A stretch of 64,000 bases of DNA from Rhodomicrobium vannielii ATCC 17100 (GTDB lineage Bacteria; Pseudomonadota; Alphaproteobacteria; Rhizobiales; Rhodomicrobiaceae): NCBI RefSeq assembly GCF_000166055.1, contig NC_014664.1, forward strand, positions 2,821,501 to 2,885,500. Direction: 5' to 3'. Within the stretch, counting starts at the first letter, position 1. Every line of letters begins with the position of its first letter. The notes beneath the pieces were generated by a model. That model was not told the origin of the DNA. It worked only from the letters and a program-made list of their open reading frames with translations, and ran no database searches. This document shows positions 14,254 through 51,313 of the stretch, in pieces. The position numbers were made by a program, and so were the translations under genes.

Positions 14254-15588
14254 TTAAGCGCCGTCTTTTTGAGTTCGTGGCGCGCGCGGGTCTGTGTTCT
14301 GCGCCGGCCTCGCGGCGTCCTGCGGCGTGCGTCGCGCAAGTTCCTGTGCCGCGCGCTTGGCAGCTGTTTCGAGTTGCGTCTGAGCCGGGGGGGCGTGCGC
14401 TTCCGCTGCCTGAGCCGAAGCCTGAGGGGCTACCGCCTGCGTCAGCGCGGCGCGTTGCCTCTCGCTCCGGGCCGGTGAAGGTGATGCCGGTGCTGTTGCA
14501 GGGCGTTGTTGCGCTTGCGCCGTGGCTGGAGCGGGCTGAGCCGGGGCCGCAGGTGCCTGGGCTGTGGGAGCGCCCGCAGGGGTTGCCTGAGCCGGTCGGT
14601 TACCCTGTTGAGCGGCCGATGTGGGTTGAGCCTGCGTCGGCGCTGTGGCCTGTACGGGTTGCGCCGGTGCCGCAGCCTGTGCCCGAGCGTTTTCGGATGG
14701 CGCGGCGATTTGCGGCTCGGGGGCGGCCTTTGCCTCAAGGTTCGGGCGGATGATCGCAAGGACCGGGCTTCCCGCTTCGGCATAGCGCTCCACGGCGCGC
14801 CGGATCTGCTCCACCACAACTTCCATGTGATGGCCGCTCGCATGGATCATCCAGTCCGGCGATTGCGCGATGGCGACATGGCCTTTCCAAAAGATCAGGT
14901 CACCGCGCTGGATGGCGTCGAGATTGTTCGGATCGAGCGCCTCGCCGAGGCTCGCCATCTGCATGTCGGTGTCGCGCAGGCAATGCACGCCCGCCGCCTG
15001 CAACGAAACCTGCACGAGGCCCGAACAGTCGATGCCGAGCGTCGTCTTGCCGCCCCAGAGATAGGGCACACCGACCATGCGTTCCGCCACGCGCACGAAG
15101 TCGCGCGCGCGCTCGCGGATGCCCACCAGATGGTCGGCGAAAATGAAGCCGCCGCGCGATAGCTCAAGGAAGCGGCCATCCGCGCGGCTGATCGGCAGCA
15201 CCGTTGTCGAGAAGCTGAGCTTCGTAATCGGCGGGCGCTTCATGTCCGGGATGGGATAGAGATAGGTGAGCCGCGCACTCACGCGATGCGTGTTGTCCTC
15301 GACCAGCGACGACAGCGCGTCGAGCGGCATATAGCCCACATAGCCGTCCTCGTGAAGCTGAACCCAGCCGAACCCGTCGCGCACCTCATAGAGCGTCGCG
15401 AGTTCACCGGACAGCGCTTCCGTCGCCTGCTCGGCCTCGAATTTCGGCGCGACACGCACAGGCGCGGATGGCGCGGCAACCTGTCGCACTTCGCCCTGAA
15501 CGTAGCGCTGCGCGCGCACACGATCTTGCAGCGTTGCGGCGGCGAGGTCTTCCCGGTAAGCGTGAAGGCGAGGATCGAGCTGTGTCAT
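14254..15588 (-). CDS. NlpC/P60 family peptidoglycan hydrolase with SH3-like domains and long Ala/Pro/Gln tail
   Basis: A 444-residue protein. Residues about 45-155 hold bacterial SH3-like segments (ELATLYEVRDGFGWVQLHED, VGYMPLDALSS). The NlpC/P60 catalytic domain follows, with Cys188 in GIDCSGLVQVSL and His237 in GHVAIAQSPDWM. These enzymes cleave D-Glu-diaminopimelate bonds in wall peptides. From about residue 286 to the end the chain is almost entirely Ala, Pro, Gln and Thr, which most homologues lack. No signal peptide is visible, which is usual for the family member found beside this aminopeptidase and suggests muropeptide recycling in the cytoplasm. Its ATG overlaps the aminopeptidase stop codon (ATGA), so translation is probably coupled. 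Confidence 0.9.
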   Translation of the reverse strand: MTQLDPRLHAYREDLAAATLQDRVRAQRYVQGEVRQVAAPSAPVRVAPKFEAEQATEALSGELATLYEVRDGFGWVQLHEDGYVGYMPLDALSSLVEDNTHRVSARLTYLYPIPDMKRPPITKLSFSTTVLPISRADGRFLELSRGGFIFADHLVGIRERARDFVRVAERMVGVPYLWGGKTTLGIDCSGLVQVSLQAAGVHCLRDTDMQMASLGEALDPNNLDAIQRGDLIFWKGHVAIAQSPDWMIHASGHHMEVVVEQIRRAVERYAEAGSPVLAIIRPNLEAKAAPEPQIAAPSENARAQAAAPAQPVQATAPTQAQPTSAAQQGNRPAQATPAGAPTAQAPAAPAQPAPATAQAQQRPATAPASPSPARSERQRAALTQAVAPQASAQAAEAHAPPAQTQLETAAKRAAQELARRTPQDAARPAQNTDPRAPRTQKDGA

Positions 15589-17009
15589 GCGCCTCTCCCA
15601 TATTCGTTGCGGATCACCTCGAACAAGGCACGCACGCCTTGCGGCTCGCCACCCATCGGCTTGCCGGGCAACGCGCGCGGCGTCCAGCCGAAAATATCGA
15701 GGTGCACATAGCGCCGCGCGTTTTTAACGAAGCGCTTCAGAAACAGCGCCGCCGTGATCGATCCGGCTAGCGGGCTGTTCGAAATGTGGTTCACGTCGGC
15801 GACCTTGCTCTTGAGGTCGCGGTCGTAGGGCATCCAGAACGGCAGCCGCCACAACGGATCGCCCACATGCGCGCCCGCCTTGTAGACGGCAGCGGCGAGG
15901 TCTTCGTCCTCGGTGTAGAACGGCGGCAGATCCGGGCCGAGCGCAACGCGCGCTGCGCCGGTCAGCGTCGCCATGTCGATCATGAGATCGGGGCCGTCCT
16001 CGTCGGCATAGGCCAGCGCGTCGGCCAGAACGAGGCGGCCTTCCGCGTCGGTGTTGCCGATCTCGACCGTGACGCCTGCGCGGCTCTTGACGATGTCGCC
16101 CGGCCGGAATGCGTTGCCGGAGATGTTGTTGTCGGCGGTGGGCACGAGAACGCGGAGCCGCACCGGCAGCTTCGCGGCCATGATCATCGCGCCGAGAGCG
16201 ATCACACTCGCTGCGCCGCCCATGTCCTTTTTCATCAGCGCCATTGCGGGCGACGGCTTGATGTCGAGGCCGCCGGTATCGAAGCAGATGCCCTTGCCGA
16301 CGAGCGTCACCTTGGGGTGCTTCGTGTTGCCCCAATGGAGTTCGGCAAGGCACGGCTCGCGCGTGGAGGCGCGCCCGACTGTTTGCAGAAGCGGGAAGTT
16401 CTTTTCGAGGAACGCTGCGCCGCGAAGGATTTTTACCTCGGCCTTGAAGACGCGCGCCATGCTCGCGAACGCGTCCGCGAGGTCGGACGGGCCGAGATCG
16501 TTGGCGGGGATGTTGATAAGTTCGCGCGCGAACCACACGGCCTGCGCTCGGGCGATCACCGACGCGCGGTCGACGCCTTCGGGGAGCACGAGCGTGCGGA
16601 TGGGCTTCGGGGCACGCGTGAAGTAGCGGCGAAACTCGTAAGCGCCGAGAAGCCACGCAAGGACGGCGTCTTCAGGCGCGCCGGGAAAGTCTGAAAGCTC
16701 GTAGGTGCCCTCGGGCAAGATTGCGGGCAGCGCGCCGAGCGCGAGCGCTGAAGCGGGCGAAGGCTCTGCGTCGCCAAGCGCGAAGATGACTTCGGCGATC
16801 CCGGTTTCACCGGGAAGAAGCGCATGCGTGCCGGGTTTCGCCTTCCAGCCGATGGCATCGAGCCATGCCGCCTGCGCGGGCGTGACGAAGCGAGCGAAAT
16901 CGTCGCGAAGTTCGGCGGCGGGAAGAGCCCGGATCTTGATGGCGCCCTTGTTATGGCTCGCCAGAAGCTCGGAAATGTCGTCGTGAATCGTTTCGTAGGA
17001 AATCGTCAT
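15585..17009 (-). CDS. Leucyl aminopeptidase family protein (M17)
   Basis: A 474-residue cytosolic metallo-aminopeptidase. The M17 signature NTDAEGRLVLADAL is present, along with the metal ligands in GKGICFDTGGLDIKPS (Lys and Asp), KKDMGGAA and MIDMATLTGAARVALG. These coordinate two divalent metals and release N-terminal residues from peptides. The N-terminal domain is of the PepB/short type. The gene is translationally coupled to the NlpC/P60 gene that follows, a pairing widespread in rhizobia, which suggests a joint role in breaking down wall-derived peptides. The start at 17009 (MTISYETIHDDISELL) agrees with the family N-terminus. Confidence 0.93.
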   Translation of the reverse strand: MTISYETIHDDISELLASHNKGAIKIRALPAAELRDDFARFVTPAQAAWLDAIGWKAKPGTHALLPGETGIAEVIFALGDAEPSPASALALGALPAILPEGTYELSDFPGAPEDAVLAWLLGAYEFRRYFTRAPKPIRTLVLPEGVDRASVIARAQAVWFARELINIPANDLGPSDLADAFASMARVFKAEVKILRGAAFLEKNFPLLQTVGRASTREPCLAELHWGNTKHPKVTLVGKGICFDTGGLDIKPSPAMALMKKDMGGAASVIALGAMIMAAKLPVRLRVLVPTADNNISGNAFRPGDIVKSRAGVTVEIGNTDAEGRLVLADALAYADEDGPDLMIDMATLTGAARVALGPDLPPFYTEDEDLAAAVYKAGAHVGDPLWRLPFWMPYDRDLKSKVADVNHISNSPLAGSITAALFLKRFVKNARRYVHLDIFGWTPRALPGKPMGGEPQGVRALFEVIRNEYGRGA

Positions 17010-17125: not shown

Positions 17126-17611
17126 CTAAATTGAGGCGAGCCAGTCCGGCATCACGGCAAGGCCGCCCGCGGCGATGGCCGCGCCATAGGGGATCGCCGT
17201 TGCACGGTCGCGCGTGTCGGCGTCGGAGCGAAGGACATCGCCCGCGAAATCGGCGGCGATATAGGCCAACGCCAGAGCCCCACCGGCGAGAGCCGTTCCA
17301 GCGAGAAACGGAAGCAGCGCATTCGGGCCGATCCAGAGGGATGCCACGGCCAGAAGCTTCGCGTCGCCTCCGCCGAGAAGGGAAGCCGCGAAAAGACCGT
17401 AGGCGCAGACGAGAACGAGAAGTGCGCACCCGGCGTGGGACGCGATCCGGGCGGCATCAAGCCCGGCGAGCAGCGCGAAAACGGCGAAGCAGGCGGCCAG
17501 CACCAGCACAAGCCTGTTCGGTATCACGCGCGTCAGGAGATCGACGGCGGCGGCCCATACAAGCAGGACGGGAAGGGCCGCCGCGACGGTCGACGTCAGG
17601 GACGATTCCAT
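17126..17611 (-). CDS. cpaA: Prepilin peptidase CpaA (A24 family)
   Basis: A 161-residue integral membrane aspartyl protease that removes the leader from Flp-type prepilins. The two catalytic Asp are visible: in AAVDLLTRVIPNR near residue 24 and in LLGGGDAKLLA near residue 86. About five to six hydrophobic segments span the whole length, and the large N-methylation domain of type IVa peptidases is absent, as expected for CpaA/TadV. It starts 22 bases after the flp pilin gene on the same strand, so the two form an operon. The remaining tad/cpa genes (secretin, ATPase, platform) are not in the window. Confidence 0.9.
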   Translation of the reverse strand: MESSLTSTVAAALPVLLVWAAAVDLLTRVIPNRLVLVLAACFAVFALLAGLDAARIASHAGCALLVLVCAYGLFAASLLGGGDAKLLAVASLWIGPNALLPFLAGTALAGGALALAYIAADFAGDVLRSDADTRDRATAIPYGAAIAAGGLAVMPDWLASI

Positions 17612-17633: not shown

Positions 17634-17816
17634 CTATTGCAGCGTGTTGAACGAGCGCAGCATTTCCCGCACCCGCTCGAACATGATCTTCACCTCGTCG
17701 TTCATCTGGCCCGCGAGCGTGATGAGCGCCACGCAGAAACCGGCAGCGATCAAGCCAAGTTCGATGGCGGCCGCGCCCTGTTCGTCCATCCAGAATTCTT
17801 CAAGCTTTGCACGCAT
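17634..17816 (-). CDS. Flp family type IVb pilin
   Basis: A 60-residue prepilin from ATG 17816, preceded by GGAGG. The leader MRAKLEEFWMDEQG is followed by the mature N-terminus AAAIELGLIAAGFCVALIT, with the Glu at position +5 required for assembly and a single hydrophobic helix. Flp pilins usually have Glu-Tyr at this point; here it is Glu-Leu. The protein is the probable substrate of CpaA encoded directly downstream and would build adhesion pili of the tad type. A TTAA-N7-TTAA box 72 bases upstream of the start suggests control by CtrA, which in Caulobacter activates the pilA gene. Confidence 0.9.
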   Translation of the reverse strand: MRAKLEEFWMDEQGAAAIELGLIAAGFCVALITLAGQMNDEVKIMFERVREMLRSFNTLQ

Positions 17817-17887
17817 TACACACCTCCGACGATATGGACATCGCCTCCATGGAAGCGGCGTCTCCCTGCACGTTAGGGGCACAAGAT

Positions 17888-17902
17888 TTAACACGCATTT
17901 AA
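17888..17902 (-). promoter_or_regulatory. Candidate CtrA-binding site upstream of flp-cpaA
   Basis: The sequence is a perfect match to TTAA-N7-TTAA, the consensus of the alphaproteobacterial cell-cycle regulator CtrA, with spacer CACGCAT. It lies 72 bases upstream of the flp start codon, in a locally AT-rich stretch of otherwise GC-rich DNA. The match is seen directly; binding is inferred from position and from known CtrA control of pilin genes in Caulobacter. Confidence 0.6.
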
Positions 17903-18074
17903 TTCGATTTTCTGTGCGGTGGGTAACGCTCTGAATGGTTATCGCGAGGTTTAACAAGTCGCCGTTGGACGCGCGGCGCGGCTGTTCTGGGCCACGCGGG
18001 GCGGCGCAAGACTTCGGGCGCGCCGATGCGACGCGCGAAACGGCTGCTTTTCAGATCGGCGGGAGACTTGCGGA

Positions 18075-51298: not shown

Positions 51299-51313
51299 TT
51301 AACGGCCCGTTAA
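51299..51313. promoter_or_regulatory. Candidate CtrA-binding site between dapA and the lytic transglycosylase gene
   Basis: A perfect TTAA-N7-TTAA match with spacer CGGCCCG, nearly palindromic. It lies 44 bases upstream of the dapA start and about 140 upstream of the transglycosylase start, so it could act on either promoter. Binding is inferred from the consensus only. Confidence 0.55.

Follow-up and report, generated by a model that had tools for sequence, protein, structure and literature searches.

The window analysed here, the whole stretch of 64,000 nucleotides taken from the genome of Rhodomicrobium vannielii ATCC 17100 (G000), contains a gene for a small Flp-family pilin followed by the prepilin peptidase gene cpaA, with a CtrA-type box ahead of the pilin (Table 1). 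A genome-wide search for Flp genes returned this pilin as its single match. The cleavage motif G-X4-E is present as GAAAIE, and CpaA exhibits the aspartate motifs GGGDAK and AVD..IPN, its gene being intact in four species. An EipB-like gene lies upstream of the operon, and the order pilin-cpaA-M17-NlpC is common to four Rhodomicrobium genomes. For comparison we used four other Rhodomicrobium genomes (G001, G002, G003 and G004) and one from another genus of the same family (G007). The same order was seen in genome G011, with pilin and then cpaA-M17-NlpC (L178:9446-13074), and in G007 a pilin gene is found near M17 and NlpC/P60 genes (L150:4364-9719). Beside the separate pilin of G002 no match to cpaA was obtained, and a CpaA tree, in which a clade of orphan-type CpaA was sought, showed long branches and unsettled bootstrap values.

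Table 1. Features of the pilin-cpaA locus, with positions counted along the window.
Feature	Position	Strand	Remarks
NlpC/P60-like protein	14254-15588	minus	Identified by sight; a conserved neighbour, with an equivalent location in L152, L167, L168 and L178
M17 aminopeptidase	15585-17009	minus	Conserved downstream neighbour; PF00883
cpaA prepilin peptidase	17126-17611	minus	Peptidase_A24 (PF01478), 58.7 bits; 22 nt after the pilin gene
Flp-family pilin, 60 aa	17634-17816	minus	Pfam Flp_Fap (PF04964), 39.9 bits against a cut-off of 32.2
-10-like element CTAACG	17871-17876	minus	11 nt downstream of the box
CtrA-type box TTAA-N7-TTAA	17888-17902	minus	Exact match; at the -35 position of the pilin promoter
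Upstream element TAAA-N7-ATAACCAT	17935-17953	minus	51 nt upstream of the box; conserved in Rhodomicrobium

The box reads TTAACACGCATTTAA on the plus strand and TTAAATGCGTGTTAA in the orientation of the pilin gene, and between it and the start codon of the pilin gene (ATG, 17816) there are 71 nt; the original prediction of a perfect TTAA-N7-TTAA sequence in front of a Flp pilin was correct both in its coordinates and in the exactness of the match. In pilin promoters across the order, an offset of 10–11 nt past the box is where the CTA of such a -10-like element peaks. The upstream element is a candidate for a second, degenerate CtrA site: TAACCATT and TAAA show no variation in five Rhodomicrobium genomes, and G000, G001, G002, G003, G004 and G007 all have an N7 site with two mismatches at this 51-nt distance.

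An exactly spaced TTAA pair would seldom arise by chance here: the 64-kb window contains two exact N7 matches against 0.07 expected, and an exact site arose within the 200 nt before the pilin in only 0.15% of dinucleotide shuffles. Scanning the complete 4.01-Mb genome (4,014,469 bases) gave a more divided result, with 20 exact N7 pairs standing above a background of about 5.9 pairs per spacing for N8–N20, but with a similar excess of N5 and N6 pairs (both comparisons being among the matches listed). The N7 spacing is thus enriched over the longer spacings and not over the two shorter ones, and we did not accept TTAA spacing across the genome as proof of CtrA sites. With N5 and N6 pairs roughly matching N7 pairs in number, the genome count alone is weak evidence and it is conservation that supplies the proof. 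The second perfect box of the window, TTAACGGCCCGTTAA, is at 51299-51313; an ORF recognised by sight as dapA-like starts 36 nt from it, and on the opposite strand a 939-aa ORF starts at a distance of 145 nt, the box preceding both.

Comparison of the same promoter in relatives revealed a box identical in G001, G003 and G004; in G002, with a pilin of only 65% identity, both TTAA halves are kept and the interior has changed; the box is hence kept in all five Rhodomicrobium promoters. The G007 promoter also exhibits a perfect box, with a chance probability of 0.4%. In an order-wide set of 119 non-redundant pilin promoters, an N7 site with at most one mismatch is present in 72, against 19.2 expected. 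Counts of such sites peak at N7, with N8 next (55 promoters), and N5 sites occur in 26 promoters against 19.9 expected. Sixteen promoters contain the composite TTAA-N7-TTAA-N10/11-CTA, again with at most one mismatch, where 0.3 would be expected. The box is therefore retained within the genus as well as in other genera and is above random frequency in pilin promoters, and this order-wide architecture makes a compact comparative case for the conservation of CtrA control of pilins.

The genome also encodes CtrA itself (G000:C1:1033455-1034057), with 83% identity to the Caulobacter query and a score of 364 bits against the 350-bit cut-off of the NCBIfam equivalog NF045991. The gene for a SciP equivalog (DUF1153) has a perfect box 38 nt ahead of it (G000:C1:2097573-2097587, L130), SciP being an inhibitor of CtrA and a CtrA target in Caulobacter, and another is found 384 nt before ftsZ. 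Just upstream of ctrA there is a cluster of TTAA words, including an N6 pair (G000:C1:1033335-1033381, L140), suggesting CtrA autoregulation. Further perfect boxes occur 129 nt before a bactofilin gene (G000:C1:3798947, L139) and 109 nt before a gene for a class A penicillin-binding protein (G000:C1:2493522, L132), both plausible as morphogenesis targets of CtrA. In Sinorhizobium meliloti, CtrA binds pilA1 directly and activates it (PMC4433202), and the Caulobacter pilA promoter is bound by CtrA at a -35 site plus weaker upstream sites (PMC11264516). Because the box is conserved, CtrA is encoded, sciP carries a box of its own and S. meliloti pilA1 offers a precedent, CtrA control of the pilin promoter, a known kind of control, is very likely. 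Judged from sequence, the central proposal of a CtrA-type box before a flp-cpaA operon thus holds: the box is conserved, it is non-random in promoters and its regulator is encoded.

The machinery by which a Tad pilus would be built has been lost from G000, G001, G003 and G004. With a CpaF query that matched 33 of 41 genomes at E<1e-100, the CpaF/TadA motor ATPase is absent from G000, G001, G003 and G004, and it was also not found in G007 and G011, both of which are at least 99% complete and both of which carry a pilin. No TadB/TadC platform protein was identified in the four Rhodomicrobium genomes: the T2SSF proteins of G000, G001 and G003 are of the GspF type only, and G004 is without any. 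RcpC/CpaB gave no match in G001, G003 and G004, which are draft assemblies of 99–100% completeness, the G000 genome being complete. What persists in G000 is a tad remnant adjoining a transposase (G000:C1:3706000-3711300, L164), without CpaF, TadB or TadC, in which CpaB is broken into two parts that are out of frame with each other, a secretin ORF resembling CpaC survives and a CpaE-like ORF is truncated. In G002 a tad cluster is still present, including CpaF and a Glu-Tyr pilin, and a Glu-Val pilin is encoded separately. Among the type II/IV ATPases of G000, one, from a type II secretion cluster, is of the GspE type, and the other three are VirB11-type proteins of 338 aa (G000:C1:1194108, 1934103 and 3052405). 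We rejected the 338-aa T2SSE proteins as CpaF, as they have no counterpart in G001 or G003 and the examined copy, at 3052 kb, is placed among TrbE, TraG and relaxase genes, suggesting that the VirB11-type copies belong to integrated conjugative elements.

The pilin itself has changed at a position that matters for assembly. A tyrosine follows the conserved glutamate (GXXXXEY) in 116 of the 119 distinct pilins of the order, and the only exceptions (two EL and one EV) are all found in Rhodomicrobium: the pilin of the window exhibits leucine at the tyrosine position and the separate pilin of G002 exhibits valine. The remark that Glu-Leu stands here in place of the usual Glu-Tyr is hence borne out. 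Cryo-EM of the Caulobacter Tad pilus shows this glutamate bonded to the tyrosine of a neighbouring subunit, and both residues are described as crucial for Tad assembly and not for expression or processing (PMC11067988). Since the tyrosine is needed for assembly of the pilus and not for processing, the Glu-Leu oddity fits the loss of the machinery: going by the translated sequence, the Rhodomicrobium pilin is one whose assembly residue is gone, whilst its cleavage motif and peptidase are kept. Because motor and platform are absent from the four genomes and the pilin is without the assembly tyrosine, the further suggestion that pilus formation is confined to one cell-cycle stage did not find support; the timed product is probably the pilin and not a Tad pilus. 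Nothing on Rhodomicrobium pili was found in the portion of the literature that our search for Rhodomicrobium and pili returned.

Selection on the two genes was compared across G000, G001, G003 and G004. The pilin displays 0–1 nonsynonymous and 1–7 synonymous changes among these four species, with seven synonymous and no nonsynonymous changes between G000 and G004, whilst the dN of 0.03–0.10 seen for neighbouring genes in the more distant pairs predicts approximately 5–11 nonsynonymous changes in the pilin. For cpaA, dN/dS is 0.13–0.23, somewhat higher than for the M17 housekeeping neighbour. Pilin dS is below that of the flanking sequence, which hints at constraint on codons or at a slowly evolving region, and the pilin dN/dS value is imprecise because 60 residues give few sites. 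Taken from these alignments, both pilin and cpaA look to be under purifying selection and maintained in genomes without the Tad motor, and the strong conservation could also be lagging behind a recent loss of the machinery.

Rhodomicrobium is a budding, dimorphic phototroph, and we propose the following explanation for the locus. Pilin and cpaA form a two-gene operon, in that order, and at the -35 position of its promoter the box would serve as a CtrA site, with phosphorylated CtrA activating transcription, probably in the late predivisional or swarmer phase. CpaA would cleave the prepilin, and the mature pilin would stay in the inner membrane without being assembled into a Tad pilus: none would be built because CpaF and TadB/TadC have been lost and leucine replaces the tyrosine that holds the subunits together. 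Selection would then keep the pilin for a role other than as a filament. Of the candidate roles, a signal to the PleC/CtrA circuit, already proposed for Caulobacter PilA, is the most concrete. We regard this account as a whole, a CtrA-timed pilin that is processed, left unassembled and kept for a non-pilus function, as moderately probable. PleC signalling by the Rhodomicrobium pilin, drawn by analogy, is our leading idea for what that function might be; the narrower reading, in which a Flp pilin uncoupled from its pilus, processed by CpaA and under CtrA control, serves as a cell-cycle-timed signal in the inner membrane (for instance to PleC), is more tentative and in our view somewhat unlikely.

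The main rival is that operon and CtrA promoter are a relic, left behind by a recently lost Tad system and without present function, their conservation reflecting too little time or the small size of the gene. The decaying tad remnant beside a transposase in G000 speaks for such an origin, and because this remnant is still there part of the Tad loss looks recent; the key tyrosine of the pilin is moreover already gone. However, all four species without CpaF retain pilin, cpaA, promoter and gene order, almost every change in the pilin is synonymous (7:0 for G000 against G004) next to neighbours that do accumulate amino acid changes, and the loss is not merely starting, as G001, G003 and G004 are without any CpaB match. 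We therefore hold a relic to be unlikely, if more credible than the two remaining alternatives. In one of these the pilin is assembled by another machine (GspE/GspF, a VirB11-type ATPase or an unrecognised motor), so that CtrA would time a surface filament after all. G000, G001 and G003 do possess a GspE/GspF system, and type II secretion could export the pilin; G000 and G004 hold 338-aa VirB11/TrbB-type ATPases that are 40% identical to CpaF; and in S. meliloti some Flp orphans may enter the pili of other clusters (PMC10934763). Yet none of these machines is common to all four genomes, G004 being without T2SSF or GspE and G001 and G003 without a VirB11-type ATPase, and the genes surrounding the examined G000 VirB11-type copy are those of conjugation (TrbE, TraG and relaxase). 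CpaF is furthermore described, in PMC12019362, as the single ATPase for both extension and retraction of Tad pili, and the pilin is without its assembly tyrosine, so that we consider assembly by another machine improbable.

It could also be argued that the box is simply a -35 region rich in A and T or is bound by a regulator other than CtrA, given that it sits where a -35 element must be and that N5 and N6 TTAA pairs equal N7 in their genome-wide excess (among the matches listed). In pilin promoters, however, the excess peaks at N7 and the interior of the box varies whilst both TTAA halves stay, CtrA is encoded, and the pilin promoters of S. meliloti and Caulobacter are bound by CtrA (PMC4433202, PMC11264516); a site unrelated to CtrA is accordingly the least credible of the alternatives, and highly improbable.

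Returning to the CtrA-timed and unassembled pilin, its promoter most resembles that of S. meliloti and Caulobacter pilins. S. meliloti belongs to the same broad group and its pilA1 promoter is bound and activated by CtrA (PMC4433202), with the difference that a complete flp-1 cluster goes with pilA1 (PMC10934763). The same organism offers a likeness in gene position, the orphan Flp pilin gene smc02446 being distant from a tad cluster; in that case, however, assembly clusters elsewhere may use the pilin, and smc02446 shares its operon with a gene for a hypothetical membrane protein, whereas the Rhodomicrobium pilin gene shares its own with cpaA (PMC10934763). Also close in layout is the Caulobacter crescentus pilA promoter (PMC11264516), where a CtrA-type site also overlaps the -35 element and pilin and cpaA are likewise under the same control. 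At least one weaker upstream site accompanies it in each case, with a gap of approximately 36 nt in Rhodomicrobium and 31 nt in Caulobacter pilA, and site 1 of the Caulobacter CtrA sites 1–4 is one base off the consensus whereas the Rhodomicrobium box is perfect. Caulobacter nevertheless possesses a complete Tad system and produces pili, whilst the Rhodomicrobium lineage is without motor or platform.

As regards function, PMC10790692 (citing Del Medico et al. 2020) reports that Caulobacter PilA interacts with PleC and that swarmer cells without pilA show a slow rise of c-di-GMP and delayed differentiation. By analogy with PilA acting on PleC, as presented in PMC10790692 and PMC11067988, the likeness would lie in an inner-membrane pilin proposed as a cell-cycle signal; the difference is that C. 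crescentus PilA also builds pili, whereas the pilus role of the Rhodomicrobium pilin appears to be gone. In Caulobacter the filament and signal roles are hard to separate because one protein serves both. Rhodomicrobium species appear to provide a natural separation of the two: they have retained the pilin, the peptidase and the CtrA promoter, have lost both motor and platform, and carry another residue in place of the assembly tyrosine. A phenotype of the pilin in these bacteria would mean that cell-cycle signalling by itself can be reason enough for a pilin to be maintained.
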